A stretch of 54,060 bases of DNA from Candidatus Iainarchaeum sp. (lineage in GTDB: Archaea > Iainarchaeota > Iainarchaeia > Iainarchaeales > VGJJ01): NCBI GenBank assembly GCA_016198125.1, contig JACQJG010000016.1, positions 1 to 54,060 of the forward strand, written 5' to 3'. Position numbers and translations under genes: made by a program. Positions 8,591 through 37,854 of this stretch are shown here, in pieces; position 1 is the first letter of the stretch; every line of letters starts with the position of its first letter. The notes under the pieces were generated by a model. The model did no database searches, was not told the origin of the DNA, and saw nothing but the letters and a program-made list of their open reading frames with translations.

Positions 8591-9346
8591 TTAGGTTTCT
8601 TCCTGGATCCATTCTTGGATGACTTTCATTTCACTTTTGAAATCGGGCAACTTTCCAAATGCAATGTATCCCAGCTCCCTTTTCCATCCTTGTTTTTTTT
8701 CTTGAAGTTTTTTTAGAAATAGTCTTTGATCAAATCTTTCATTATAGTATTTCATTTTTTGATTGATTAATTTTAGGTCGAAAGAGATCTTTTTCTCCCG
8801 AATGAGAAAGGCCAAATCGAAAACATCCCGGGGTTTGTCGCGTGTCATGATCGCCCGCACTTTTTCAGCCGATACTTCCTCCAACGCCATTCCATTCAAT
8901 AGCTTGGTTTGAAACCCATAGTTTTCATTTTTGAGCGAAAGAGGGATGGTTTCTCGCAGGATGTTTTCGCGCAGACTGATTTCCACATACACGAAAGAGG
9001 TACTTTGTTTTCCTTTGTACAATGGACCCTCTGAAGCAATCCGAAAGCTCGTCCCTTGGACGGATCCTTCCATCCTTTTCCCTTTTGCCTTAATTTGAAA
9101 ATTTTCAAGGGTGTTAAGGGTGTTTTCCATTATTTTTCCGGGCAGTTTTTGGGAAGCCGTAAAATCCAAGTCTTCGGAAAACCGTAGGAGGTGATGGAAA
9201 AACCAGAGATAGGTCCCTCCCTTGAACACCAGAGGGTATTCCGCTAGGGAAACGAGGACGGCATTTTGGATGTAGTGTTTCTCCTGTTGCCAGGGTTTCA
9301 TGTTGTTTAGCTTGGCGAGTTCCAGGAGTTTTTCCTTATCAATCAT
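8591..9346 (-). CDS. abiEii: AbiEii-type nucleotidyltransferase toxin
   Basis: 251 residues. Polymerase-beta-like nucleotidyltransferase of the AbiEii/MenT group: the motif FKGGTYLWFF...RFSEDLDF near residues 41-62 provides the Gly-rich turn and the catalytic Asp pair, and later AEKVRAIMTRDKPRDVFDLAFL is the conserved helical motif. Toxins of this family transfer nucleotides to RNA (tRNA acceptor ends in MenT) and arrest growth. Its start codon overlaps the stop of the AbiEi gene (ATGA), as in known abiE operons. The region is visibly richer in A/T than the flanking genes, suggesting horizontal acquisition. Confidence 0.88.
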   Translation of the reverse strand: MIDKEKLLELAKLNNMKPWQQEKHYIQNAVLVSLAEYPLVFKGGTYLWFFHHLLRFSEDLDFTASQKLPGKIMENTLNTLENFQIKAKGKRMEGSVQGTSFRIASEGPLYKGKQSTSFVYVEISLRENILRETIPLSLKNENYGFQTKLLNGMALEEVSAEKVRAIMTRDKPRDVFDLAFLIREKKISFDLKLINQKMKYYNERFDQRLFLKKLQEKKQGWKRELGYIAFGKLPDFKSEMKVIQEWIQEET

Positions 9347-9906
9347 TTCATTTCCCCCTCAATTCTCTTTCGCGTTTTCTCCGGAATCTTGTCCAGCAAT
9401 TGGTTCAACCGCCTCCGATTAATCTTTTTCATCAATTCGGCCACCGTACTTTTTGAATAGGCCCGCAAATAGAGCCCATCGATCAACGCTTTTTCGGGAA
9501 TCGCCAAAAAATAATAATCGTTATCTGCCTTTACGCGTTCAAACCCAAAGAATAACGATGAAGGGATGCGATGATAATTGACCCCCACCCCCGGAAGCCG
9601 GCGGGCGACCTTGGGGGTGACACATTCAATATCGGCCGGCACTTGCTGGATCAATTGGTGCATGAGCAAGGCACTGTAAAGAGAAATGTACGCGGGTTCG
9701 ATGAGTTGGGTTGCAACGACGTAATCATCATTCGTGAAGGCGATCTTACCGCGTACCAATCGCCGAGCCAACTTTTTTCGCACGAGACGGGAAGCATATA
9801 CCTTAGCAGTTAATTTGGACGAACTAATGAGATTAGCCAGTTGCTGGACGGAAAATACCGCCCGACCACTCCTCAGGGCTTTATCCCGAATCTCATACAA
9901 ATTCAT
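9343..9906 (-). CDS. abiEi: AbiEi-type antitoxin / transcriptional repressor
   Basis: 187 residues. The N-terminus is a winged-helix domain (FSVQQLANLI...KVYASRLVRKKLARRLVRGKIAF), followed by the AbiEi antitoxin domain (YISLYSALLMHQL, VARRLPGVGVNYHRIP, EKALIDGLYL). In described AbiE systems this protein neutralises the toxin and represses its own promoter by binding inverted repeats. Two related inverted repeats lie immediately upstream, at 9918-9935 and 9991-10007. A GGGTGA Shine-Dalgarno-like stretch precedes the ATG. It is first in the two-gene operon and overlaps the toxin gene by four bases. Confidence 0.87.
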   Translation of the reverse strand: MNLYEIRDKALRSGRAVFSVQQLANLISSSKLTAKVYASRLVRKKLARRLVRGKIAFTNDDYVVATQLIEPAYISLYSALLMHQLIQQVPADIECVTPKVARRLPGVGVNYHRIPSSLFFGFERVKADNDYYFLAIPEKALIDGLYLRAYSKSTVAELMKKINRRRLNQLLDKIPEKTRKRIEGEMK

Positions 9907-10460: not shown

Positions 10461-10694
10461 ATGATTAAACGGCTTTCCGACCACGTGTTAGTGCCACGCC
10501 ATGAAGTGGTTTCACGCGAAGAGGAAGCCCAGGTGCTCACCAAATTAGGCGTGGAAAAGGAAAAACTGCCTGTTATTCTTGAATCCGATCCCTCGGCCAT
10601 GGAAGTAAAAGCCAAGAAAGGGGATTTGGTTCGCATTGTACGCAAGAGTCCCACTGCAGGCGAAACCATTTATTACAGGCGGGTGGTGGGGTGA
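10461..10694 (+). CDS. rpoH: DNA-directed RNA polymerase subunit H (RPB5 C-terminal type)
   Basis: 77 residues, the usual archaeal length. It matches the C-terminal core of eukaryotic RPB5: LSDHVLVPRHEVVS at the N-terminus, then LPVILESDP and GDLVRIVRKSPTAGETIYYRRVV. It sits in the lower jaw of the polymerase and helps grip downstream DNA. First protein gene of the RNA polymerase operon; it overlaps the rpoB'' start as GTGA. Confidence 0.97.
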   Translation: MIKRLSDHVLVPRHEVVSREEEAQVLTKLGVEKEKLPVILESDPSAMEVKAKKGDLVRIVRKSPTAGETIYYRRVVG

Positions 10695-12178
10695 AGGGAA
10701 CCACCGTTGACTTAAGCAATACGTGGGCGCTTGTACAATCCTATTACAACAACCGGTCCATTGCCCAGATGGAAACCGAGTCATTCAATCAGTTTGTAGA
10801 TGAAAAACTGCCGGAAATCATTTCAGAAAACAAGTCCATTGCCCCCAAGATTGAAGAAGTCAAAGTGGAATTGGAAGCCATTGAAGTCCAGCGCCCGCGC
10901 ATCATTGAGGCGGATGGAAGCCCGCGCAACGATTTTTACCCCATGGAAGCGCGCATCCGCAACCGAACGTATTCAGCGCCTTTATTCTTAACCATGCGCA
11001 TGCTTCGCAGGGATGTAGAACAGGATTTGAAGAAAACGTACATTGGCGAATTGCCCATCATGCTTAAAAGCAACCGGTGCTGGCTGGCAGGAAAAACCCC
11101 GGAAGAAGTGATTGCAATGGGCGAAGACCCGCTTGACTTTGGAGGGTATTTCATTGTCAATGGCTCTGAAAAAGTGCTGATCACGCAGGAGGTTCTTGCA
11201 TCGGACCGCGTGATTTTAAGCGAGAAAACAGGGGACAAGGTTACTGCGGAAGTCATTTCAACCCGGGGGGCATTCAAAGGCCGTGTAAGGATCATGCGCA
11301 ACAAGGACGGCATTTTAAGCGTTACATTCCCTGCATCTCCAAGAAAGCTGCGCTTGTTCGTGCTCCTGAAGGCATTGGGATTGAAGAACGACGAGGAAAT
11401 TACCAAGGCATTCGCAAACACCAAGGAAGTGCAGAACGACGTGCTGTTGAACCTGGAGAACATGGAAATCAAAGACGAGGAAGAGGCCTTGGACCGCATT
11501 GGAAAATATGTGGCTCCCGGCCAGGTCATTGATTATCGTTTGCGCCGCGCCCAGGAAGTCATTGACGCGTTCCTGTTGCCCCACATTGGCCAGGGAAAAG
11601 ACCAGCGCCTGGCAAAGGCCTATTACCTGGCCATGATGGCTGAACGCGCAGTGGAACGCGCCCATGGTTTGAGGGGCGAAGATGACAAGGACCATTACGC
11701 AAACAAGCGCTTGGAGTTAAGCGGAAAACTCATGGAGCACTTGTTCAGGTACAGTTTCAAGTACTTTGTCAAGGATTTAACTTTTCAAATTGACCGCACC
11801 ATTACAAGGAGAAGGAAATTGAACATTTCCACGGTTGTAAGGCCTGGCGCTATTTCAGAGCGCATCCGGTTTGCCATGAGCACGGGAAACTGGATTGGGC
11901 GTTCTTCCGGGGTAAGCAAGTTCATGGACCGCGTGAACTACCTGGCGCCGCTCACGGATTTGCGCAAAGTTAAAAGTCCGTTGAACAAGAACCGGGAATT
12001 GTATGAGGCAAGGGACGTGCATGGAACGCACTGGGGGAGGTTAGACCCCATTGAAACGCCGGATGGACCCCAGTGTGGATTGGTGCGCAACTTGAGTTTG
12101 CTTGCCGAGGTCACAACAGAAAAAGACCCTGTTGGAATTGAAAAACTATTGCATGAAATGGGAGTCAAATTGAAGTAA
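10691..12178 (+). CDS. rpoB2: DNA-directed RNA polymerase subunit B'' (N-terminal half of RpoB)
   Basis: 495 residues from GTG 10691, overlapping rpoH. It corresponds to the protrusion, lobe and fork domains of the second-largest subunit: PMEARIRNRTYSAPLFL, GELPIMLKSNRCWLAG, DPLDFGGYFIVNGSEKVLI, and near the end GRLDPIETPDGPQCGLVRNLSLL. The B subunit is split into two genes here, as in methanogens, halophiles and several other euryarchaeal lineages. The break comes after the fork region, just before the B' hybrid-binding part. No inteins or frameshifts were seen. Confidence 0.97.
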   Translation: MKGTTVDLSNTWALVQSYYNNRSIAQMETESFNQFVDEKLPEIISENKSIAPKIEEVKVELEAIEVQRPRIIEADGSPRNDFYPMEARIRNRTYSAPLFLTMRMLRRDVEQDLKKTYIGELPIMLKSNRCWLAGKTPEEVIAMGEDPLDFGGYFIVNGSEKVLITQEVLASDRVILSEKTGDKVTAEVISTRGAFKGRVRIMRNKDGILSVTFPASPRKLRLFVLLKALGLKNDEEITKAFANTKEVQNDVLLNLENMEIKDEEEALDRIGKYVAPGQVIDYRLRRAQEVIDAFLLPHIGQGKDQRLAKAYYLAMMAERAVERAHGLRGEDDKDHYANKRLELSGKLMEHLFRYSFKYFVKDLTFQIDRTITRRRKLNISTVVRPGAISERIRFAMSTGNWIGRSSGVSKFMDRVNYLAPLTDLRKVKSPLNKNRELYEARDVHGTHWGRLDPIETPDGPQCGLVRNLSLLAEVTTEKDPVGIEKLLHEMGVKLK

Positions 12179-12198
12179 TAGCGTAAGCAGGTATTCGT

Positions 12199-14013
12199 AT
12201 GAACGTTGAAGGAAAAGTGTACGTGAACGGGAAGCTCATCGGGTTTCACAAGGACATTGAACAATTAACAAAGGAATTGGTTGCGCGCAGGCGTCAGGGA
12301 AAGCTAAACTATCAAATCAACATTTCCTATCACGAGGATACAAGGGAATTGTACATTAACACGGATGCCGGCCGCGTGCAACGCCCGCTCATTGTAGTTG
12401 AAAACGCCAAGCCGCGTCTCACCAAAGACCACATCCGGCAGGTGGAAGAAGGAAAACTGAGCTGGATGGACCTGATCAACAAGGGCATCGTGGAATACTT
12501 GGACGCCGAAGAAGAAGAAAATACGCTTGTAGGAACAGACGAGAACGAGTTAACAGAGGACCACACGCACATGGAAATCAATCCCACAGGAATTCTCAGC
12601 ATCATAACGTCCATGATTCCCTATTTGGAAAACAACATGGCGGGAAAGGCTTTGCACGGAGCCAAAATGTTCAAGCAAGGCCTTGGAATCGGGTCTGTGA
12701 ATTACAATCTGCGCACGGACACCGAAGGCTACTTGATGTATTACCCCCAAAGAGCCCTGGTTAAAACGCGCACCATGGACTTGCTGCAATCCGATAAGCG
12801 CCCGGACTTGCAGAACTTTGTAGTGGCCATCATGCCCTTCATGGGATTCAACATGGCGGATGCCGTGGTGTTGAATAAAGGCGCTGTTGACCGGGGGCTG
12901 GGCAGAAGCGTGTACTTCCGCATGTATGAGGCCGAGGAAGTGCGGTACCCTGGAGGACAAATTGACAAGTTTGAAACACCTTCAGAAGACATAGTGGGTT
13001 ATTTGTCAGAAGAATTTTACAAGAAATTGGGCGCTGACGGGTTGGTGGAACCGGAAATGCAGGTGTTTGATAAGGACGTTATTATTGGAAAAACGTCTCC
13101 GCCAAGGTTCTTGGAGGAGATAACAGATTTTGGAGTCATTCAGGAAAAGCGCCGTGAATCCTCAGTGGTTGTAAAAAAGGGAAAAGAAGGCGTTGTGGAC
13201 AAAGTGGTGGTTACCGAAGGCCCGGATGGAAGCAAGCTGGCCAAAGTGAAACTGCGCACCGAGCTTTTTCCTGAGCCTGGGGACAAGTTTGCAAGCAAGC
13301 ACGGCCAAAAAGGAGTGGTTGGCGCAGTCATACCTGAAGAGGACATGCCCTTTACTGAACAGGGCATTCGCCCGGACCTCATATTAAACCCGCATTCCAT
13401 TCCAAGCCGTATGACCATTGGCCATTTGATTGAAATGCTTGCAGGAAAAGCCGCTTCGGTGGGCGGAGAAATTGTAGACGGAACACCATTCAACGTGGAA
13501 TCGCGGGACCAGTTAAAGAAAGTGCTTGTTTCGCATGGATTCAGAGAGGATGGAAAAGAAGTATTCTATGATGGCATCACGGGAAAAAAAATCACGGGAG
13601 AAATTTTTACCGGAGTAGTTTCATACAGGCGCTTGTTCCACCTGGTTTCACACAAAATCCAGGCACGTTCAAGAGGGCCTGTGCAGATTCTCACCCGCCA
13701 GCCCACGGAAGGAAAAGAAAAGGAAGGCGGCCTGCGATTTGGGGAAATGGAAGGCGAAACGCTTGTAGGCCACGGGGCTGCCATGCTCTTGCAGGAAAAA
13801 TTCATTGAAGATTCGGACAAAGTAACAGAACTTGTGTGCGCTTCCTGCGGGGTCATTGCAGTGAATGACACCATTCGCAGGAAAAGGTATTGCCCCTTGT
13901 GTGATAGCGCCAATATTTACCCGGTTCAAATGAGTTATGGGTTCAAGCTTTTATTGGACGAATTGAAGGCGTTGGGCATTTACCCAAAACTCGTGTTGGG
14001 AGACAAAGCATAG
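12199..14013 (+). CDS. rpoB1: DNA-directed RNA polymerase subunit B' (C-terminal half of RpoB)
   Basis: 604 residues, starting 20 bp after rpoB''. It contains the hybrid-binding domain and part of the active-site scaffold: YPQRALVKTRTMDLL, FNMADAVVLNKGAVDRGLGRS, GDKFASKHGQKGVVGAVIPEEDMPF, and NPHSIPSRMTIGHLIEMLAGK. A C-terminal zinc-binding clamp has CASCG and CPLCD. Length and motifs are normal for a split archaeal B'. It forms the catalytic core together with A' and A''. Confidence 0.97.
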   Translation: MNVEGKVYVNGKLIGFHKDIEQLTKELVARRRQGKLNYQINISYHEDTRELYINTDAGRVQRPLIVVENAKPRLTKDHIRQVEEGKLSWMDLINKGIVEYLDAEEEENTLVGTDENELTEDHTHMEINPTGILSIITSMIPYLENNMAGKALHGAKMFKQGLGIGSVNYNLRTDTEGYLMYYPQRALVKTRTMDLLQSDKRPDLQNFVVAIMPFMGFNMADAVVLNKGAVDRGLGRSVYFRMYEAEEVRYPGGQIDKFETPSEDIVGYLSEEFYKKLGADGLVEPEMQVFDKDVIIGKTSPPRFLEEITDFGVIQEKRRESSVVVKKGKEGVVDKVVVTEGPDGSKLAKVKLRTELFPEPGDKFASKHGQKGVVGAVIPEEDMPFTEQGIRPDLILNPHSIPSRMTIGHLIEMLAGKAASVGGEIVDGTPFNVESRDQLKKVLVSHGFREDGKEVFYDGITGKKITGEIFTGVVSYRRLFHLVSHKIQARSRGPVQILTRQPTEGKEKEGGLRFGEMEGETLVGHGAAMLLQEKFIEDSDKVTELVCASCGVIAVNDTIRRKRYCPLCDSANIYPVQMSYGFKLLLDELKALGIYPKLVLGDKA

Positions 14014-14023
14014 GGGAATGAAC

Positions 14024-16642
14024 ATGTTGACCAAGCGCATTGAAGCCATTGAATTTGCCGTGTTAAGCCCGGACATGATCCGAAAAATGTCTGCCATTGA
14101 AATAAAGGTGCCTGACACGTATGACAAAGACGGGTATCCCATGGAAGAAGGGTTAATGGACCCCCACCTGGGGGTTATCAATCCTTCCCTGCGGTGCAAG
14201 ACGTGCGGCCAGAAGATGAAGCAGTGCCCCGGGCATTTTGGAAGCATGGAACTCGTAAGGCCGGTCATTCACCCCAAGTTTTCAAAGAACCTTGAAACCC
14301 TGCTCATGGCCACGTGCAGGGAATGCGGGCGCATTGTACTGAAAGATGAACAGTTAAAAGACATCATTGATGCAACCAAGGACAGGTCCTTGGATGACCG
14401 CGTGAAAATCCTTGTCAAGAAAACAAAGGCCAAGCAGAAATGCCCCCAATGCAACGCCGAGCGCAAGCAGATTCTCCTGGACAAGCCCACTAATTTTTTC
14501 CATGACAAGGACCGCATTTACCCCACGCAAATACGCGAATGGGTGGAAAAGATTCCATCCAAAGACCTTGAATTGTTTGGATATGAAGCCGAGCGCATCC
14601 GGCCTGAATGGTTCATTTTAACGGTTTTACAAGTCCCTCCTATCACCATTCGCCCGTCCATTACCTTGGACACTGGAATCAAGTCCGAAGACGATTTGAC
14701 CCACAAGCTCGTGGATGTTATTCGCATTAACGCGCGCTTAAAAGACAACATTGAAGCAGGCGCGCCCCAATTAATCATTGAAGACTTGTGGGATCTGCTT
14801 CAATACCATGTAACCACGTACTTTGACAACAACTCTGCAGGCGTTCCACCGGCCAAGCACAGAAGCGGAAGAAGCCTGCGCACGCTGGTGCAGCGCTTGA
14901 AGGGAAAAAAAGGAAGGTTCAGGTACAATTTGACTGGAAAGCGGGTTAATTATGCGGCAAGAACCATTGTAACGCCCGACCCTTTCCTGTCCATCAACGA
15001 AGTGGGCGTTCCAAAGGAAATTGCAAACGATTTGACAATACCTGAATATGTAACCACGTTCAACCTTGAACAATTCAAAAAAGACATTAAGAATACAAAC
15101 CGCGTAATTTACGTAACGCGCCCCAATGGCCTGCGCAAAAAAGTCGGCGATTTAAACAAGGATGAAATCATAGCTGAACTTGAACTGGGGTGCAAGATTG
15201 AGCGCGTGCTTGAAGACGGGGACATTGTACTGTTTAACCGCCAGCCTTCCCTTCACAGGTTATCCATGATGGCCCATACGGTCAAGGTAATGCCGGACCG
15301 CACCATTCACATGAATCCAACCGTCTGTCGTCCCTACAACGCAGATTTTGACGGAGATGAAATGAATCTTCACGTACCTCAGACCGCGGAAGGCAAGGCC
15401 GAAGCACGTGAACTCATGTACGTGCAGGACCAGATCATTTCCCCCCGGCATGGAGGGCCTGTGATTACCCTCATGGAAGACGGCGTTTCAGGGTTATTTT
15501 TGCTGACATTAAAGTCAACAGAGTTCACGCCTGCAGAAGCCATGAATTTTTTCTATGAAATCGGGTTAACGGACATTCCAAAACCCGACCGCGGAAAAAA
15601 CTATTCCGGAAGGCTCGTATTCTCCCAAATCCTGCCCAAAAACTTTAACATTGAATTTCCCAGTTACACTTCGCGCCTGCTCCTGCAGGCCGGCCTTATT
15701 GCAGACCCGAAAGAGGACAAGGAATTTGATTCCTACGTGCGCATTGAAAATGGAAAACTCGTAACTGGAATCATTGATCAAGCCGCATTGGGCGAAGGCA
15801 CTGGGCGCATTATTGATGTGCTTGCACGCGAATACCCAAAAGATGTGCTGGAAAAGTTTTACAGGGACACGAATCGATTGGCCGTGTACATGGTCACGCG
15901 CACGGGCATAACGGTTGGATTGGACGAATTTGAACCGTCAGAAACCGTGCTGCGCGCCAAAGAAGACGCTGTGCGCGAAGAGCTCTTGGAAGCCGAAGAA
16001 CTCGTGCGCAAACTCAAGTCCAATCAGTTGGAGCCCATTCCTGGAAGGCAGGTTCAGGAAAGTTTTGAAATTTACATGCTTCGCCTGGGCGCCAAGCAAA
16101 AATCCAAAGTGGAAAAACAAATCATCAGCGAAAAAATCCGCGAGGTCATTGGAAGGCCGCGGCCAAAGTACAATACTACTACCATGATTCTAAGCGGGGC
16201 AAGAGGCGGAATGACCAATTTAACCAACCTCATGGGGCTGTGGGGGCAGGCATCTGTAAGAGAAGGCAGGCCCAGAAGAGGGTACAAGAAAAGGCTTATC
16301 ACCATCAACAAACCAGGAGACGTGGGCGCAATTGCTGGTGGGTTTATCCAGCACAATTTCATGGAAGGCATGAAAGTGCGCGAATACTTTTACCATTCCA
16401 TGGGCGGCCGCCAGGGAGAAGTGGACACCGGGGTTTCAACCAAAGTGTCAGGGTACTTGTACCGGCGCCTGGCCAACTCGTTGAAAGACCTGGTGGTCAA
16501 TTACGATGGCACTGTGCGCACGGCGAACAAGAACATCATACAATTGGTTTACGGAGAAGACGGCGTCTTCCCGGCAAAAACAAAACGCGGAAAAGTGGAC
16601 ATCAAAGAGCTTTTGCGGAGGTCCACTCAAAAGGAAAAGTGA
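14024..16642 (+). CDS. rpoA1: DNA-directed RNA polymerase subunit A' (N-terminal part of the largest subunit)
   Basis: 872 residues. The active-site magnesium loop NADFDGDEMNLHVPQ is intact, with the three catalytic aspartates at residues 441, 443 and 445. The N-terminal zinc clamp reads CKTCGQ...CPGHFG and is followed by a CRECG / CPQCN zinc pair; YNLTGKRVNYAARTIVTPDP is the switch/lid region. ATG 14024 is chosen over ATG 14018 because the AGGGG ribosome site at 14012-14016 is 7 nt away rather than 1. The A subunit is split after the bridge-helix region, continuing in the next gene. Confidence 0.97.
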   Translation: MLTKRIEAIEFAVLSPDMIRKMSAIEIKVPDTYDKDGYPMEEGLMDPHLGVINPSLRCKTCGQKMKQCPGHFGSMELVRPVIHPKFSKNLETLLMATCRECGRIVLKDEQLKDIIDATKDRSLDDRVKILVKKTKAKQKCPQCNAERKQILLDKPTNFFHDKDRIYPTQIREWVEKIPSKDLELFGYEAERIRPEWFILTVLQVPPITIRPSITLDTGIKSEDDLTHKLVDVIRINARLKDNIEAGAPQLIIEDLWDLLQYHVTTYFDNNSAGVPPAKHRSGRSLRTLVQRLKGKKGRFRYNLTGKRVNYAARTIVTPDPFLSINEVGVPKEIANDLTIPEYVTTFNLEQFKKDIKNTNRVIYVTRPNGLRKKVGDLNKDEIIAELELGCKIERVLEDGDIVLFNRQPSLHRLSMMAHTVKVMPDRTIHMNPTVCRPYNADFDGDEMNLHVPQTAEGKAEARELMYVQDQIISPRHGGPVITLMEDGVSGLFLLTLKSTEFTPAEAMNFFYEIGLTDIPKPDRGKNYSGRLVFSQILPKNFNIEFPSYTSRLLLQAGLIADPKEDKEFDSYVRIENGKLVTGIIDQAALGEGTGRIIDVLAREYPKDVLEKFYRDTNRLAVYMVTRTGITVGLDEFEPSETVLRAKEDAVREELLEAEELVRKLKSNQLEPIPGRQVQESFEIYMLRLGAKQKSKVEKQIISEKIREVIGRPRPKYNTTTMILSGARGGMTNLTNLMGLWGQASVREGRPRRGYKKRLITINKPGDVGAIAGGFIQHNFMEGMKVREYFYHSMGGRQGEVDTGVSTKVSGYLYRRLANSLKDLVVNYDGTVRTANKNIIQLVYGEDGVFPAKTKRGKVDIKELLRRSTQKEK

Positions 16643-19845: not shown

Positions 19846-22596
19846 ATGGGACGAAAAGAAGAAATGGCCAGGCGCGCGCAAAGCCTCATGGGCAACCAGA
19901 AAGACGTGCGCAACATTGGAATTGTCGCACACATAGACCACGGAAAATGTGTTAGCCCAGGTACGCGCTTACTCTTCTCTGATGGACAAGCCGTCACTGC
20001 CAAGGACGTTTTTGAAAGACTATCCGAAAAGGGGAAGATTGTTCGGGAAAATGCGAATGAAATCGTATACGAGTTAAACGAAGAAACCCCTCACGTCTTT
20101 TCCTTAAACAAGGCCACACGGGCCATTGAAACTAAACGCATTTCCCATGCATGGAAACTAAAAGGAGGCAGAACGCTCAAAGTAAAACTTCGCAATGGAA
20201 TGCAAGTTGAAACAACGCCCGAACACAGGTATTTGGTGTTTGATGGGGGTGAATTCGCTGAAAAAATGGCAATGAACCTTGAAATAAATGATAGAATAGT
20301 TGCTCTCGCAAACCATTCTGCTTATTTTACTGAAATAAAACACGAAACGGGAAATCAACTTGCCTTACAATTAGTTAATCCTGCAAATTTAATGGTTGAA
20401 CCCATTGAAATTGAAAAAATAGTTGAAAGCTATTGTGAAACAGTTTACGATTTCACTATCAAGGAAAACCACAATTTTATCGCGGAAGGAATGGTTATTC
20501 ACAATACAACCCTCTCAGACTTCCTCATCGCGTCCGCCGGCCTTATTTCAAAGGAGCTTGCAGGAAAACAGCAGTTCATGGATTTTGAGGACCAGGAACA
20601 GGAAAGGGGAATTACAATCAACGCGGCCAACATTTCCCTTGTGCCCAGCGTTAACGGAAAAGAATTCCTCTTGAATCTCATTGACACTCCGGGACATGTT
20701 GATTTTGGAGGCGAAGTAACAAGGGCCATGCGCGCCGTGGACGGGGTTATTTTGGTCGTGGATGCCGTGGAAGGCGTCATGCCGCAAACGGAGACCGTGA
20801 TTAGGCAGGCACTGCGCGAGAATGTTAAACCCACGTTGTTCATCAACAAGTGCGACCGCCTCATCAAGGAATTAAAAATCGATGAAAAGGAAATGCAAAA
20901 CCGCTTTGTGAAAACCATTACCCAGGTAAACAACCTCATCCGAAAAAATGCACCCGAACAATTCAAGGAAAAATGGCAGGTCAACCCAGCCCATGGAAGC
21001 GTTTCGTTTGGAAGCGCATTCAATCACTGGGCGGTTAGCGTACCTTCCATGCAGCGCACGGGCATCAATTTCAAGCACGTGTATGATTACATGCTGAATG
21101 ACAAGCAGAAAGACCTTGCAGGCAAAAGCCCGCTGGACCAAACCATTTTTGAAATGGTGTTAACCCATTTGCCCAGTCCCGTGGAAGCCCAGGCATACCG
21201 AGCCAAGGTCATTTGGTCCGGAGACCCTGAAAGCCCATTGGGAAAGGCTATGAGAACCTGCGACATTCAGGGACCGCTGGCCATGATGGTTACGGATGTA
21301 AGCGTGGACCCGCATGCAGGAGACATTGCAACTGGAAGGCTCTACGCAGGAAAAGTCCACAAGGGGGTTAAAATCAAGCTCATTGGACTGCAAAAGGAAG
21401 CCATTATTCAGCGCGTGGGCGTGTACATGGGACCTGAATTCGTTGAAATCGAGGAGGTTCCTGCAGGAAGCATTGCAGCCATTGTGGGGTTAAAGGAAGC
21501 ATTTGCGGGCCAGACCATTTCCACTGAAGAAATGCTTGAATTTGAGAGCTTTAAAACAAACGTTGAACCGGTCATTACAGTTTCCATTGAAGCCAAGCAA
21601 ACAAAAGACCTGCCCAAGCTCATTGAAGTGCTGCGCCAACTCACCAAAGAGGACCCGAATCTGCGTGCCACGGTAAACCAGCAAACTGGAGAGCACCTGC
21701 TCTCAGGAATGGGAGAATTGCACTTGGAAATCAACCAGTACCGCATTGAAAAACACCACCACGTTCCAATTACCGTAAGCCCGCCCATTGTGGTATACCA
21801 TGAGTCCATTACAAAGGAATCCCCTTCTTTGGAGGGAAAGAGCCCCAACAAGCACAACAAGTTCCTCATGCGCGTGGAACCCATTCCAAGAGACATCTTC
21901 GAAAAACTCGCGCTGGAAAAAATTCAGGCCAAGGTGCGCCCAAAAGACAAAGAACTGGTGCAAAAATTCATTGACATTGGATTTGACAATGACACTGCAA
22001 AGAAGGTCTGGTGCGTGCACAACAACAACGTGCTTGTGGATGCAACCAGGGGCATACAGGCATTGCACGAAGTCAAGGAACTGGTCATCCAAGGCTTCCA
22101 GGATGCCATGAATGAAGGCCCGCTTGCCAAGGAAAAATGCGCAGGCATGACCGTGTTCCTGGAAGATGCAAAACTGCACGAGGATGCCATTCATAGAGGA
22201 CCTGCCCAAGTCCTGCCCGCGATTACAAGAACCATTTACGCGTGCATGCTTTCATCCGACCCTATTCTCCAAGAGCCCAAGCAAACCCTTACCATCACGG
22301 TTCCCCAAGACTTTTTGGGTGCTGTGTCAAAAGAATTGGGGGCAAGGCGCACGCAAATTCAGGAAATCCGCATGGAAGGAGATACCAATATTGTCATTGG
22401 CATTGCGCCTGTCAAGGAACTCATCGGGTTTGCGGCTTCCATGAGAGGGGCCACGCAAGGAAGGGCCATGTGGACTGCAGAATATTATGGCTACGAACCC
22501 CTGCCCAGGGAACTCCAAAAAATAGTGATCACGGAAGTACGCAAGCGCAAGGGCCTGGATCCGGAAGTAAAGCCTGCAGGATTCTTCTTGGAATGA
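19846..22596 (+). CDS. fusA: Elongation factor 2, precursor interrupted by an intein
   Basis: 916-residue precursor; removing the intein (residues 35-220) gives a 730-residue EF-2, the usual archaeal length. It drives GTP-dependent translocation on the ribosome. The intein splits the G1/P-loop between Lys34 of AHIDHGK and Thr221 of TTLSDFL, so GTP binding needs splicing. Other motifs: DFEDQEQERGITI (switch I), DTPGHVDF (G3) and NKCDR (G4). The diphthamide site is intact: His783 of the precursor, His597 after splicing, in DAIHRGPAQV. This position corresponds to the known modified histidine near residue 600 of archaeal EF-2. The gene follows rps7. Confidence 0.97.
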   Translation: MGRKEEMARRAQSLMGNQKDVRNIGIVAHIDHGKCVSPGTRLLFSDGQAVTAKDVFERLSEKGKIVRENANEIVYELNEETPHVFSLNKATRAIETKRISHAWKLKGGRTLKVKLRNGMQVETTPEHRYLVFDGGEFAEKMAMNLEINDRIVALANHSAYFTEIKHETGNQLALQLVNPANLMVEPIEIEKIVESYCETVYDFTIKENHNFIAEGMVIHNTTLSDFLIASAGLISKELAGKQQFMDFEDQEQERGITINAANISLVPSVNGKEFLLNLIDTPGHVDFGGEVTRAMRAVDGVILVVDAVEGVMPQTETVIRQALRENVKPTLFINKCDRLIKELKIDEKEMQNRFVKTITQVNNLIRKNAPEQFKEKWQVNPAHGSVSFGSAFNHWAVSVPSMQRTGINFKHVYDYMLNDKQKDLAGKSPLDQTIFEMVLTHLPSPVEAQAYRAKVIWSGDPESPLGKAMRTCDIQGPLAMMVTDVSVDPHAGDIATGRLYAGKVHKGVKIKLIGLQKEAIIQRVGVYMGPEFVEIEEVPAGSIAAIVGLKEAFAGQTISTEEMLEFESFKTNVEPVITVSIEAKQTKDLPKLIEVLRQLTKEDPNLRATVNQQTGEHLLSGMGELHLEINQYRIEKHHHVPITVSPPIVVYHESITKESPSLEGKSPNKHNKFLMRVEPIPRDIFEKLALEKIQAKVRPKDKELVQKFIDIGFDNDTAKKVWCVHNNNVLVDATRGIQALHEVKELVIQGFQDAMNEGPLAKEKCAGMTVFLEDAKLHEDAIHRGPAQVLPAITRTIYACMLSSDPILQEPKQTLTITVPQDFLGAVSKELGARRTQIQEIRMEGDTNIVIGIAPVKELIGFAASMRGATQGRAMWTAEYYGYEPLPRELQKIVITEVRKRKGLDPEVKPAGFFLE
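19948..20505 (+). other. Mini-intein in the P-loop of EF-2
   Basis: 186 codons in frame within fusA. Splicing motifs in order: block A begins with Cys1 (CVSPGTRLLFSDG); block B contains ETTPEHRYLV with Thr90 and His93; block F reads VYDFTIKENHNFIAEG; block G ends VIHN with penultimate His and terminal Asn. The next extein residue is Thr. All residues normally needed for splicing are present. Between blocks B and F only about 70 residues remain, with no LAGLIDADG or HNH motif, so it has no homing endonuclease. Its second half is noticeably A/T-richer than the extein, suggesting separate origin. Confidence 0.95.
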
Positions 22597-22654: not shown

Positions 22655-23062
22655 TCATTTATGGGAATAAAACTGCAGGCCGTTAATCCTTTGGAAATGA
22701 GAATGGTTGCGTGTTAGGATGGACGCGTTCCACTGCTTTGCAGTAGCCGCGATGAAAACGTCACGCGAATCTATAAGCGTTCCTTTTCCTTTCAAGTCCA
22801 TGGTTATTGCAGCCGCAATGGATGCAGTTATTTCATCAAACGGAAAAACGGGCACTTTTTTCAAAAACCGCTCTGCGGTATCCAAGTTATCCTTCCGCAT
22901 TTGCAGTTCATACGCGGTTACGGCGCTGACAAAAACCTGCACGGTTTGTGATTGAAAAACGTATTTGAAGGCAGAAGACTCATGGCCTTTCAAAAAATCG
23001 ATGATGACGTCAGTATCTAAACAGACCCTTTTCCCCAGTTTTTCCACTGTTTCCGAATCCAT
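22655..23062 (-). CDS. vapC: PIN-domain ribonuclease toxin (VapC)
   Basis: 135 residues. PIN-domain motifs: CLDTDVIIDFLKG near the N-terminus (first acidic cluster), AYELQM (Glu), and DSRDVFIAATAKQWNASILTRNHSHF (Asp plus the TRN motif). VapC toxins cut tRNA or rRNA when free of their antitoxin. The reading frame overlaps the end of the vapB gene by 46 bases, more than the usual few, so the pair is tightly coupled. It is on the opposite strand to its neighbours, between fusA and tuf. Confidence 0.87.
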   Translation of the reverse strand: MDSETVEKLGKRVCLDTDVIIDFLKGHESSAFKYVFQSQTVQVFVSAVTAYELQMRKDNLDTAERFLKKVPVFPFDEITASIAAAITMDLKGKGTLIDSRDVFIAATAKQWNASILTRNHSHFQRINGLQFYSHK

Positions 23063-25661: not shown

Positions 25662-25715
25662 CAGCGCCTGACCAGGGCATGCCTATTTATTTTCTAAAAC
25701 CGTTTAATGATTCAC

Positions 25716-26291
25716 ATGCCTCAACGTCCTTCAAAGTCTGCACGCAAGCGCGAAAAGTTTCTTGTCAAAGCCCACGAGTTGTTTGAATGGCATGTTGACC
25801 CTAAACCGGTTAGTGAACAATTCACTCGGCCAAACTTAAAGGCATTTGAACGGGCATTAATAACCCGAAGACTGCTTGACCAACAGCCCTTTCGCGGGAA
25901 AGAAAGCCGCTTGAAGTTCAGCAACAAAGCCCATTACGTTCACATTTTCAGCCAAGGGTCCAATCTTCCATGGAACAACATTTCGGAAGCACAAAAAAAG
26001 AAGCTGGCCAATACCTTCATTAAATATCATTTGAATCTTTTAGGACTGTGCTCTCCGGAAGGCGCACTTGAACCCTGCAGCAAAAGGGCTAGAAACGTGA
26101 TCGCCCTTCAGCTTGCGGATGAAAAAAACTTTACACTCGGAAACATTGAGGATTTGGAATACGAGTTGAAAAAAACACGCAATGAAGAGGCGCGTGAAAC
26201 CATTCAAAGACGCCTGGTCCGGTATAGAAATCTTTTAACCCTTCTTGATGGCGTGATTCATGGTTTGCGCAATGGAACGTATACATGGTAA
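25716..26291 (+). CDS. Unknown basic helical protein, paralogue A
   Basis: 191 residues from ATG 25716 (ATG 25707 also possible). No family recognised. Strongly basic N-terminus (PQRPSKSARKREKFLVKA), then helical text. It shares its layout with the next gene: a MPxxPS start, a His-containing segment followed by 'SxAQ-K/Q-KK/ER-A-FIK' (SEAQKKKLANTFIKYH here), and an ending YRNLLTLLDGVIHGLRNGTYTW that matches QNLFTLYKGIIEGLRTGRFKW. A TATA-like CTATTTATTT lies about 30 bp upstream. No transmembrane segment or catalytic motif seen. Composition suggests nucleic-acid binding; this is inference. Confidence 0.7.
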   Translation: MPQRPSKSARKREKFLVKAHELFEWHVDPKPVSEQFTRPNLKAFERALITRRLLDQQPFRGKESRLKFSNKAHYVHIFSQGSNLPWNNISEAQKKKLANTFIKYHLNLLGLCSPEGALEPCSKRARNVIALQLADEKNFTLGNIEDLEYELKKTRNEEARETIQRRLVRYRNLLTLLDGVIHGLRNGTYTW

Positions 26292-26355
26292 GAGTAAAAA
26301 CCTCCGTGAAAAAACCATTGGCCTTTTTATTCAACAACATCCCATTGCATTTTCA

Positions 26356-26919
26356 ATGCCCAAAAAGCCCAGTCTTTTCAAAGCCATGCGCTTGCGCATC
26401 CGGCGTGTTAAGTTCCTGCAGCGGGCAAGCCAGTTGTTTGGAGGCCAGCCGCTCTCCATCAATACAGTCAAAGACTTTGAACGCGCACACGAAGCCCTTG
26501 AACCCATGGTAAAACGCATCAAAGGCCGCTACCACTTTACTTCGCACGCCCATGCCGAGTACGCGAAACGCTATGGTGCCAGGCATGCATGGAAAGAACT
26601 TTCCAAGGCCCAACAGGAGCGCGTGGCGCGCGCATTTATTGAGGCAGGACTTCCAAATGCACGTTTCCCTGCCCAGGCAAGTACCCCCTTAAAGGCGCGT
26701 CCGCCGTACAATCGTGAAACCCGTGAAGGCCTGATCCGCTGGCTTGCGTATGAACGCGGGTTCTACAAACAACTGCTAAAAGACAAAATGAAAGCCGTTC
26801 AGCCCCGTGTAGCTGAACACGTGGAAACCCGGGAACGCAACCGCAAAAGAATGCAAAACCTGTTCACCCTTTACAAGGGCATCATTGAAGGCCTGCGCAC
26901 GGGTCGCTTTAAGTGGTAG
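26356..26919 (+). CDS. Unknown basic helical protein, paralogue B
   Basis: 187 residues from ATG 26356, chosen because MPKKPS matches the start of paralogue A; an in-frame upstream ATG at 26260 would overlap the previous gene. Very basic, with FTSHAHAEYAKRYGARHAWKEL, SKAQQERVARAFIEAG and a C-terminal GIIEGLRTGRFKW block. Pairwise resemblance to the upstream gene spans the whole length, so this is a diverged tandem duplication. Function unknown; no enzyme motif found. It ends before a bidirectional terminator-like hairpin. Confidence 0.7.
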   Translation: MPKKPSLFKAMRLRIRRVKFLQRASQLFGGQPLSINTVKDFERAHEALEPMVKRIKGRYHFTSHAHAEYAKRYGARHAWKELSKAQQERVARAFIEAGLPNARFPAQASTPLKARPPYNRETREGLIRWLAYERGFYKQLLKDKMKAVQPRVAEHVETRERNRKRMQNLFTLYKGIIEGLRTGRFKW

Positions 26920-34569: not shown

Positions 34570-35541
34570 TCAATTTCTGACTTCGTATACGGTCATTTCG
34601 GGATTCCAGTCATAGTCTTTTATGGAAAGTCTTCGCAAGTGATGCACGAGGTGTTTCAGAATGGCATTCGCATAGCCCGTTAAGTATTTTTGTGGCGCGT
34701 GGGGGTAGAATGGCCGAATCATGGTTTTAACATCCGCGCGTGTTATGGTTTTCAGTTCTCTTTTTTCCATTTCGGATAAAACGAAGCTCACAGCCCTTTT
34801 CCTCTTGGAACCATATGGATGTTCTTCCAGGGGTGTGCGTTTCACAGGTGTTTTTCGAAGCATGACAATACTGCGATTAAAAATCTGCTGTATTCTAGGT
34901 GATGAAAGCCCAAATTCTCTGCCAATTTCTTTAAATGTAATCTTTGGGCCATCGATTCCAAAGTATTTTCGAACAATCTCTCTACGCCGAAAAGGTAAGC
35001 GTTGCAATAATTCCTTGATAGCTATGGAATCGCTTTCTCCTTGCGTGAAAGGACTTTTACCTCTCTCGAGTCGGCGGTAAGGAACAGCTTTCATTTTGGT
35101 ACGCGGTTTTATGGAAGAAGCAATCGCGTCGTTAAGAGAAGTTGCCAAATTGGCATACACTTTTTGCGAGAAACTCATGTCCTGAATAAACTGTAATGCC
35201 CTTTTGCGCGCGCGGGCGAATAATTGTTCTGGCGAGGCTTTGGTTTGCACGCCTTTGGACCGCAGGAAACGAATACGTTCGGCCACATGCAACGTGGCAT
35301 AGTCTCTAAGTAGCTGGTATGCTTTCAAACGATCCGATGAATGACTGCCCCCCATCAAACGATATGCTCTACGCACTACCCCATACGTTGAAGGCATTCT
35401 TTCACGCGCTTTTTGAAGGACCCAAACACTACCAGGAGATGAAAAACGACGGGTGGATTTCAGGTGCTGGGCCTGCTGGGCAGCCATTCGGAGCCGCATT
35501 TTTGGAGAAGCATATCGAATACTGGGAGGTCCGCGGGGCAT
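34570..35541 (-). CDS. Protein with a sigma-70 region-4-like helix-turn-helix
   Basis: 323 residues from ATG 35541 (ATG 35562 in frame). About residues 175-232 read ELLQRLPFRRREIVRKYFGIDG, then ITFKEIGREFGLSSPRIQQIF and RSIVMLRK. This is the layout of bacterial sigma-70 region 4: 'LPxRxREVxxxxFGxDG', 'TLxEIGxxxGxSxxRxxQIxxxAxxxLR', with the recognition helix around SSPRIQQI. No region 2 or 3 could be recognised in the basic N-terminal 170 residues. The C-terminal 90 residues are a separate helical part. Archaea do not use sigma factors, so it is most likely a DNA-binding regulator. No partner gene is evident. Confidence 0.7.
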   Translation of the reverse strand: MPRGPPSIRYASPKMRLRMAAQQAQHLKSTRRFSSPGSVWVLQKARERMPSTYGVVRRAYRLMGGSHSSDRLKAYQLLRDYATLHVAERIRFLRSKGVQTKASPEQLFARARKRALQFIQDMSFSQKVYANLATSLNDAIASSIKPRTKMKAVPYRRLERGKSPFTQGESDSIAIKELLQRLPFRRREIVRKYFGIDGPKITFKEIGREFGLSSPRIQQIFNRSIVMLRKTPVKRTPLEEHPYGSKRKRAVSFVLSEMEKRELKTITRADVKTMIRPFYPHAPQKYLTGYANAILKHLVHHLRRLSIKDYDWNPEMTVYEVRN

Positions 35542-35611
35542 AAGAAATGAAAACACCTGCATTCTATAAAAAGCCCTTGTTTGATTAACCTTTTAACGAT
35601 AACAAGGGTAG

Positions 35612-35646: not shown

Positions 35647-37854
35647 ATGGGACCTGCATTACTGGCGCGTTTAAGGCTTTTTGGCGGCATTTTTCTGTTC
35701 CTGGTCTTGGCATGGGCCCCACAGGTTTGGGCAGTGGCGTGCAGTGATTTGGTCATTCAACCCGATCTTGTTTTCGGGAATGAAAGCTCTACTTTTACAC
35801 AAAATATGACCATTCAAAACAACAGCCCCGTGAACTTCAACATAATGGATGTGAATGGGACTGAATTCTCAGATTATTTTTCGTTTTCCAAGGGCAGTTT
35901 TTCCACTTCCATTCCGGGAAATGGAAGCATTAACGTTCCGCTTGCATTCTCGTTTGGAAGCGTAACCCAAAACCAAACGGATTTTTTGTACGTGCAAGTA
36001 GATGGAAACTTTTCCGATTCCAATCTTCATTGCGGCTTCCAGCAGGTCAACAAGGCCATTCAGGTTACTGTGAAGGAAACGTCTTCGTTGTGCAGCCAAT
36101 TGGATTTTGACCTGGAAAACGTTTCATTGAATGAAAACACTTCTATTGAAGAAACGTTTACACTGTCCAACCCCACGGGCTTTGATTTTAATGTTTCAGA
36201 AATAGAGGTATTGGAAAGCGCTTCCGAGTTAAGCGTTTCATTGACAGAATTTGACTCGGACCTGGAAGCAGAAGATGAAATTGATTTCACCGTTGAATTG
36301 AATGCGTTGAACGCCAATCAAACAGTGAGTGTTCCTGTTTTCGTGCATGCGCTTGGAACATTTGAAAATGGAACAACCTGCGGTCTTTCCGCGGCCCAGG
36401 ACTCATTCAATGTAACCGTAAACAACACGGTTTCAAGTGCGTTGTGCCCGGGCATGGAAGTGCAAATCCACACTCTTGAAGTGCCGCAGAATGGAAGCGC
36501 GTTGGACGCATTAACCGTGCTCAATAAAGGCAGCGTGAACTTTTACGTGGATGAAATTCAAATCCAAGACGCGAATTTATCTTTGGACATTCATGAACTG
36601 GACTGGGATTCCTTCATTCCCTTTGGAGAAGCCGGGACCATCAACGTTTCCATGGAGGGATTCAGTGCTCCTATTTTTGACGGCAATGCATCCTTTACTT
36701 TGCAGGGTCATTTCACGAACAATGCAAGCTGCCAGATTGTCAAAAAGATTCCATTCACCCTGAAAGCCTTTGCAGGATTTGAAGGCAGCACGTGCAGTGA
36801 TATTGTAGTGAAAACGGATGCATTCAAGATTCTTGGAAGCGAAAAAGAATTGGAAGTGTTTGTGAACAATCCGTTAAACGAACAGGGAACGCTAAACATT
36901 GAAAGCACGAATGCATACGCTGTGCCTTCAACCATTCCCATTAACCCGCTCAGCACGTTCAAGCAGTCTGTGCACGTGGAGCCTTTGAATGAGAGCCAAA
37001 CAAGCGCGGAAGTGGAAATAAAGGCCCAAATTGGGGCGTGTCCCCTTCAATCCAGTGCATCCAAATTATTTTTTTCAGGCACCATCAATCATCCCCTGGA
37101 ATTTATAGAGGTTCCTTCCGCGGTAGATGCAGCGAACGTGCAGTCATTCAGGGTTGCCTTGCGCAATAAAACAAGCCAGGGGGTTTCTGCAAAAGTGAGT
37201 GTGGTGTTTAGTGATTCCACATGGAGCGCGGCCTCGCTCAACGCGCCCTTCAATGCGTTTGAAACGCGTATACTTGAAATCGCGTTCTTCCCTGGAACTG
37301 GCGGGAGTACAACTGCCCAAGTACAGGTGGAAGCAAACGGCGAGGTTAAAACCAAGACCCTGCAGTTTCTTTCGCCTGCATTGCCTCCAGTGGATATTCA
37401 GTCCAGTGTACAGCCTTCTTCGGCTGCAGACCACTATGATATTGTGGTAGTGGTAACAAACAACACCAATCAAAGCGTGGATGGAACGCTCGTCATTCCG
37501 CTTCCACCCCCATGGACGGTGCAGGGAAATACGAATGTACATGTAAAAGCCCATGGCATAGAGCTGCGCGCGTTGACCTTAATGCCCGGCGCGCCAGTGG
37601 TAAGCGAAGTACCCTTGGCCGTTCAATTCGTTCCAAAAAAAGGAATTCCAAGCACAAGCATAGTGGCATTGAAGCCCATTGCTTCCGGGCCGCTTACTGC
37701 ATTTGTGTTCGTTGGAAACACGGCATTTTGGGGGTTAATCGTATTACTTTTATTGGCCTTGGTTTGGGTTTCCTTGGAGGTAGGAAAAAAGCCTGAACCC
37801 CAAGAGGCTTGGGCCCAGGGGCTTGTTTCCCCGCCATCAGAGAAGAAAGTCTAG
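35647..37854 (+). CDS. Large surface protein with four ~117-residue Cys-containing repeats
   Basis: 735 residues. A signal helix at about 10-29 ends in AVAC, so Cys32 could be a lipid attachment site. Four beta-rich repeats begin with C-[SP]-x-[LMI] at Cys32, Cys149, Cys267 and Cys383, spaced 117, 118 and 116 residues. Each has a second Cys near its end (HCGFQ, TCGLS, SCQIV, ACPLQ), probably a disulphide per repeat. N-glycosylation sequons (NxS/T) are very frequent. A fifth region at about 480-690 lacks the cysteines. A C-terminal transmembrane helix at about 692-714 and a short cytosolic tail anchor it. It is probably a cell-surface (Ig-like) stalk or S-layer-type protein. Confidence 0.75.
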   Translation: MGPALLARLRLFGGIFLFLVLAWAPQVWAVACSDLVIQPDLVFGNESSTFTQNMTIQNNSPVNFNIMDVNGTEFSDYFSFSKGSFSTSIPGNGSINVPLAFSFGSVTQNQTDFLYVQVDGNFSDSNLHCGFQQVNKAIQVTVKETSSLCSQLDFDLENVSLNENTSIEETFTLSNPTGFDFNVSEIEVLESASELSVSLTEFDSDLEAEDEIDFTVELNALNANQTVSVPVFVHALGTFENGTTCGLSAAQDSFNVTVNNTVSSALCPGMEVQIHTLEVPQNGSALDALTVLNKGSVNFYVDEIQIQDANLSLDIHELDWDSFIPFGEAGTINVSMEGFSAPIFDGNASFTLQGHFTNNASCQIVKKIPFTLKAFAGFEGSTCSDIVVKTDAFKILGSEKELEVFVNNPLNEQGTLNIESTNAYAVPSTIPINPLSTFKQSVHVEPLNESQTSAEVEIKAQIGACPLQSSASKLFFSGTINHPLEFIEVPSAVDAANVQSFRVALRNKTSQGVSAKVSVVFSDSTWSAASLNAPFNAFETRILEIAFFPGTGGSTTAQVQVEANGEVKTKTLQFLSPALPPVDIQSSVQPSSAADHYDIVVVVTNNTNQSVDGTLVIPLPPPWTVQGNTNVHVKAHGIELRALTLMPGAPVVSEVPLAVQFVPKKGIPSTSIVALKPIASGPLTAFVFVGNTAFWGLIVLLLLALVWVSLEVGKKPEPQEAWAQGLVSPPSEKKV

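Follow-up and report, generated by a model that had tools for sequence, protein, structure and literature searches.

In the textbook view, archaeal transcription starts without sigma factors. A gene in the 54,060-nucleotide stretch of Candidatus Iainarchaeum sp. analyzed here (contig JACQJG010000016.1, in the following the window) nevertheless codes for a protein in which an initial annotation had noticed a segment resembling region 4 of bacterial sigma-70. No region 2 was seen at that time; a repurposed sigma fragment acting as a regulator and a convergent helix-turn-helix were both considered, and a profile search, a structure prediction and a survey of gene neighbours were proposed as checks. 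Hence the locus raises two questions: is the protein a genuine relative of sigma factors, and which role could it have in an archaeal cell?

The host, an archaeon with a small genome, is equipped as the annotation had assumed. The genome has TBP and TFB, and the contig of the window carries split archaeal RNA polymerase (RNAP) subunits, EF-2, EF-1A and a ribosomal protein cluster. The largest RNAP subunit was matched once in the genome, by the archaeal-type split gene inside the window, and no bacterial RNAP was found in the host genome. The genome bin consists of 20 contigs at draft level, with a completeness of 71% and a contamination of 0.66%, so that contamination with bacterial DNA has to be considered as a source of the gene. 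For the window gene we reject this explanation, which is extremely improbable, because the same contig bears the archaeal RNAP, elongation factor and ribosomal genes. Furthermore, a second contig of the bin (C2) combines TBP with two other sigma-like genes, and the local gene order (EF-2, EF-1A, archease, RtcB) is the same as in a contig from Diapherotrites. The adjoining RtcB is 59% identical to its counterpart in Candidatus Diapherotrites archaeon AUK235 (L068); the next best match has 50% identity. The RtcB match and the gene order make Diapherotrites/Iainarchaeota the likely phylum of the host.

The window has several other features that are recorded here in their own right. The second-largest RNAP subunit is split in two genes (10691-16642), one with Rpb2 domains 1-3 and the other with domains 4-7; by eye, the largest subunit is split too. 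These genes adjoin an AbiEi/AbiEii type IV toxin-antitoxin pair (8591-9906). The EF-2 gene (19846-22596) holds an intein (Intein_splicing PF14890, E 2.1e-21, aa 57-220), and a lone PIN-domain (VapC-like) gene is located between EF-2 and EF-1A (22655-23062). At 25707-26919 two ORFs (194 and 219 aa) lie side by side and look like a tandem duplicate from a family without a Pfam match. As judged by eye, the segment 1637-8527 contains a saccharopine-dehydrogenase-like gene surrounded by two genes of the aldehyde dehydrogenase type and two of the class-III aminotransferase type.

The coordinates of the sigma-like gene and of the features discussed below are collected in Table 1. The initial annotation had described a genuine ORF, and its coordinates correspond to the second of two in-frame start codons. 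The sequence itself shows a TATA-like TTTTTATA centred about 27 nt upstream of this second ATG. This is the spacing expected between TATA box and start codon for a leaderless archaeal transcript, and the ATG at 35541 is therefore the likelier start. The whole protein is basic, with a pI of 11.06. An AF2 model of the entire protein, computed from an alignment of three rows (the window protein and its two relatives), is of low confidence, with a mean pLDDT of 57.8. Region 4 is its best part (pLDDT about 60-85); the stretch between the domains appears as a low-confidence linker, in which no region 3 was seen. The part of about 78 aa after region 4 is modeled as helix-strand-helix-helix-strand, with a pLDDT of about 59-78 over aa 251-310 and below 50 beyond. 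It matches no Pfam family at its cut-off and is perhaps a winged helix, judging from the model. Both relatives (L006 and L010) are also extended at this position, each by a segment of its own.

Table 1. Coordinates of the sigma-like gene, its parts and its upstream neighbour in the window. Residue numbers are counted from the ATG at 35562.
Feature	Position	Strand	Residues or length	Basis
Sigma-like protein gene	34570..35541 (to 35562 if the upstream ATG is used)	minus	323 aa (330 aa)	ORF list, PF04545 match, TATA-like box
Basic N-terminal extension	35389..35541	minus	aa 8-58	Sequence; low-confidence in AF2 model
Cryptic sigma region 2 (probable)	35119..35340	minus	aa 75-148	AF2 of this part alone, VIA, hhalign, colinear alignment
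Putative helices of region 2			75-102 (2.1); 111-128 (2.2); 133-148 (2.3/2.4)	hhalign and model
Sigma-70 region 4	34849..35025	minus	aa 180-238	PF04545 match, AF2 model, VIA overlay with 1rio_H
C-terminal extension	34573..34806	minus	aa 253-330	DSSP of AF2 model
CCCTTGTT-N19-AACAAGGG, a perfect inverted repeat between the two divergent start codons	35574..35608			Candidate operator, not significant (see text)
Divergent protein	35647..37854	plus	735 aa	ORF list

Next we consider whether the resemblance to region 4 reflects common descent. In a search against Pfam with hmmscan the protein matched PF04545 (Sigma70_r4) with 35.5 bits (E 7e-9) at a gathering cut-off of 24.1 bits; the match extends from aa 185 to 237 and covers the model over its full length (1-50 of 50). 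No other Pfam family reached its cut-off. A six-frame search of the own genome with region 4 recovered the protein with 39 bits (5.6e-10). When the three-row profile was compared with PDB sequences, the best match was region 4 of RpoD (1tlh_B, E 4.4e-10). When the model of aa 179-238 was superposed on region 4 of a Thermus sigma factor (1rio_H), VIA gave a Z of 10.4 and an rmsd of 1.3 Å over 60 residues; Foldseek gave a TMt of 0.86. The NCBIfam profile for ECF sigma factors (TIGR02937) matched aa 172-237 only, with 27.0 bits, which is below its curated cut-off of 42.9. The full-length PF04545 match, the profile match to RpoD and the predicted fold together argue for homology. Both the profile search and the structure prediction thus bear out the proposal of a genuine sigma-70 region 4 in an archaeal protein, and the alternative of a convergent helix-turn-helix is rejected on the grounds of the full-length Pfam match and the match to RpoD among PDB sequences. 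The putative recognition helix of this domain is LSSPRIQQIF.

The evidence on region 2 is more indirect. With respect to Pfam the earlier statement that this region is missing holds: hmmscan gave no match of the protein to PF04542 up to E 1. It does not hold for the fold and profile evidence, which points to a diverged domain at about aa 75-148. With region 4 left out, aa 54-184 were folded alone (AF2) from the three-row alignment. The resulting model has a low-confidence pLDDT of 63.9, with a helical core of about 73-80. All of the 50 VIA matches listed for this model are sigma chains by title, a count in which structure families absent from the lists are not treated as excluded. The best match was E. 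coli sigma70 (6ca0_F; Z 9.4, rmsd 5.8 over 104) and the second a T4 gp55 complex (Z 8.6); Z values of 8-9 are within the chance reach of helical bundles. Foldseek returned 37 sigma chains in the first 50 rows according to our own reading, with a weak best E of 0.27.

Profile comparisons pointed in the same direction. We compared the three-row profile of the putative region 2 with a profile of 24 region-2 segments, which had been hand-picked among the sigma-like proteins of the phylum; of 56 proteins scanned there, 31 match PF04542. The hhalign score of 21.7 (P 0.0028) exceeded those of all 400 column shuffles (maximum 17.5), all 200 seven-column block shuffles (maximum 17.9) and all 20 segments from unrelated real proteins (maximum 17.3). 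The three-row profile also aligned colinearly with two-domain sigmas over aa 92-266 (E 5.7e-10), region 4 supplying most of the score, and the sigma factor family PHROG 351 spans aa 85-267 of the window protein with an E of 1.2e-11. The exact placement of region 2 depends on the method: Table 1 follows hhalign and the model, while a global MAFFT alignment suggests another register, in which aa 111-128 would be region 2.4, and an alignment to SigBFG gives a third one.

The sceptical reading of these data is that only region 4 is derived from a sigma factor, that the N-terminal helices belong to an unrelated helical domain and that the protein is a simple helix-turn-helix regulator. It agrees with the Pfam result and with the middling Z values that helical bundles often yield. 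It also agrees with a shuffle test on single sequences, in which four of six proteins failed to stand out as region 2: 55 of 150 shuffles scored as high as the window protein (L004), 11 of 150 as high as L006, 36 of 150 as high as L010 and 31 of 150 as high as L005, another sigma-like protein of the phylum; L001 and L015 passed, with 0 of 150 each. However, the VIA matches listed were all sigma chains even though region 4 had been left out of the model, the three-row profile scored above every shuffle and every unrelated segment, and the order and spacing of the domains are those of a two-domain sigma. This makes the sceptical reading unlikely. A diverged sigma domain 2 probably precedes region 4.

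The next question is whether such a domain 2 could still contact the polymerase. In bacterial sigma factors region 2.2 grips RNAP via a DLxQE-like motif. In the hhalign register the window protein has QLFAR at this place, and its two relatives have EIYTR and MLYSQ; judging from these residues, the window subfamily seems to have lost the clamp-contact motif. The 24 segments from cousins in the phylum, in contrast, have D or E at the first position of the motif throughout (24/24), Q at the fourth in 19 and E at the fifth in 13. The recognition segment of region 4 is altered as well (SSPRIQQIF), whereas L001 from the same genome keeps SRERARQIQ.

These observations bear on the possibility that the protein is a working alternative initiation factor. 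Here domain 2 would sit on the clamp coiled-coil of the archaeal RNAP and melt DNA, while domain 4 would read an upstream element, so that the protein would replace TFB/TFE. Both sigma domains are apparently present in the right order, and a segment corresponding to the clamp coiled-coil can be recognized by eye in the Rpo1 of the window. According to PMC3223566 this coiled-coil is a binding site common to TFB/TFE and sigma70; together with the DLxQE pattern kept in the cousins, this suggests that some of the latter may still bind RNA polymerase. For the window protein itself such a function is improbable: all three members of the subfamily are without the motif, the recognition segment differs from that in L001, and the region upstream of the gene resembles an ordinary TATA promoter.

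We also analyzed how the protein relates to other sigma-like proteins in its genome and phylum. The same genome holds three further ones. L001 has 298 aa, with 46.3 bits for region 4 and a region-2 profile score of 40.2; L008 (189 aa) has 39.7 bits for region 2; L009 (218 aa) has 21.9 bits for region 2, which is below the cut-off, and is covered by TIGR02937 over aa 32-201. Hence the window protein is a member of a lineage-wide set of sigma-like proteins and not an isolated oddity. Matches to region 4 over the cut-off occur in 37 of 87 genomes of the phylum, a count that takes in other helix-turn-helix families such as DUF134 (6 of the 56 proteins scanned). Region 2 was matched over the cut-off in 21 of the 87 genomes; in 14 control genomes the same search matched none of four archaea and all of ten bacteria. 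When the two tables are combined, 11 ORFs in 10 of the 87 genomes have both regions, one of these ORFs with region 2 below the cut-off. A match to region 2 was likewise obtained for 29 of 290 archaeal genomes, and 21 of these 29 belong to this phylum.

Other types of sigma-like protein were seen in the course of this survey. A second recurrent type of about 261 aa (L005:901-1683 and L015:1477-2262) occurs in two genomes of one genus and has an N-terminal extension ahead of a diverged region 2. Long FliA-like proteins, in which regions 2 and 4 are recognizable, are encoded at L017:385-1761 (459 aa) and L037:1369-2274 (302 aa).

The window subfamily itself is small. In profile searches full-length members were found in three of the 87 genomes of the phylum, and the search of 290 archaeal genomes returned the same three. 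These represent two genera in one family of four genomes; the fourth genome of this family (G072) gave no subfamily member. The window protein is only 22-24% identical to its two relatives. The genes of the relatives lie between nre and an apparent thrS, while this neighbourhood is absent at the window gene; the survey of neighbours thus uncovered a common context for two members but placed the third elsewhere. In G074 we noted by eye a 435-aa ORF with repeated helix-turn-helix-like motifs near the sigma-like gene of a relative (L158:4232-5539), perhaps another region-4-like protein to judge by its sequence, and a 958-aa ORF resembling the small subunit of replication factor C, seemingly with a large intein (L158:1228-4104).

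The subfamily is highly divergent, and among the PHROG families a viral sigma family matches best; both observations would fit a virus-borne sigma that has decayed and no longer has a role. The open frame, however, is kept in three genomes from two genera, in two of them with common neighbours. Scans of genome contigs and viral contigs did not reveal wider relatives of the subfamily; one weak phage match covers 15% of the window protein, and no viral genes were recognized beside the window gene. A decayed viral remnant is therefore very unlikely.

The first candidate targets of the protein are its own promoter and the divergent gene at 35647. For the product of the latter, Pfam gave no match up to E 1; this protein is apparently secreted and membrane-anchored, as far as its sequence indicates. 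The inverted repeat between the two starts is the sole occurrence of its sequence in the genome with spacers of 10-30. However, when the 105-nt interval was subjected to 2000 dinucleotide shuffles, 397 of them reached an 8-bp arm of this kind; the repeat is thus not significant, and we do not claim an operator at this site. Of 1542 windows taken along the contig, 98 also contain arms of this length. The 8-mer AACAAGGG itself is somewhat overrepresented in the window (9 versus 3.6 expected), and no equivalent repeat was found at the loci of the two relatives.

Complete sigma factors were reportedly described in uncultivated archaea by Rinke et al. in 2013; the window protein differs from these in its degenerate region 2. 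A review (PMC6126073) attributes the first finding of sigma factors in archaea to Rinke and colleagues. Castelle et al. 2021 (PMC8204110) report sigma-70 genes in DPANN archaea, especially Woesearchaeota, rule out mis-binning and call the control of these genes unclear. Their family fam00359 resembles the present case in that sigma-70 genes occur in archaea with TBP, TFB and TFE, but it is prevalent in Woesearchaeota; this comparison with the window subfamily is one by description. With these published genes, sigma-70 in DPANN archaea is already known. No prior report of the window subfamily was found in the open-licence literature, and the subfamily is new within a known, little-studied kind.

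Bacterial ECF-type and other sigma-70 factors (PF04542 with PF04545 or PF08281) have in common with the window protein the sequence and fold of region 4 and, as far as predicted, a domain 2 that is followed by a linker and domain 4. The window protein differs from them in that its region 2 is below every sequence cut-off and the DLxQE motif is apparently lost, in its C-terminal extension and in its archaeal host, for which no bacterial RNAP was found. DUF134 (PF02001) is an archaeal region-4-like helix-turn-helix family from the same phylum; the DUF134 proteins in the set scanned are short, however, and PF02001 gave no match to the window protein up to E 1. In the scan of the set at E up to 0.001, PF04545 was the sole family that matched it. 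The helix-turn-helix of the second TFIIB repeat in TFB also matches Sigma70_r4 weakly (19.7 bits), but the window protein matches neither the TFIIB repeat nor the zinc ribbon.

Together these results lead us to favor the view that the window protein is probably a strongly diverged two-domain sigma-70 relative, kept as a promoter-directed DNA-binding regulator beside TBP/TFB. Because the clamp motif seems lost and the recognition segment is altered, a regulator rather than an autonomous sigma factor is the most economical reading. The suggestion of a repurposed sigma fragment is hence retained in part: the homology stands and repurposing as a regulator appears the most likely role, but with a domain 2 and a C-terminal extension the protein is probably more than an isolated region 4. 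Its layout would be that of an ECF-type sigma, with domain 2, linker and domain 4, to which a basic N-terminus and a C-terminal part were added. We infer that an ancestor was acquired from bacteria or their phages and that its descendant was retained for work at promoters alongside TBP/TFB. An upstream promoter element would be bound by domain 4, perhaps together with the C-terminal part, and a domain 2 without the DLxQE contact to the clamp would mean that the protein is no longer an autonomous initiation factor.

A wider and more speculative proposal, which we consider possible but rather doubtful, is that the phylum runs a second, sigma-like layer of promoter selection on the archaeal RNAP. 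In this scheme the cousins with DLxQE would replace TFB/TFE on the clamp coiled-coil, while the C-terminally extended window subfamily would steer promoters that depend on TBP/TFB. The clamp motif is kept in most cousins and seems lost in the window subfamily, and this difference makes the question of polymerase binding directly testable. If some of the sigma-like proteins do bind the archaeal RNAP, two initiation systems would operate on one polymerase, a situation that would matter for the disputed relationship between sigma and TFB.
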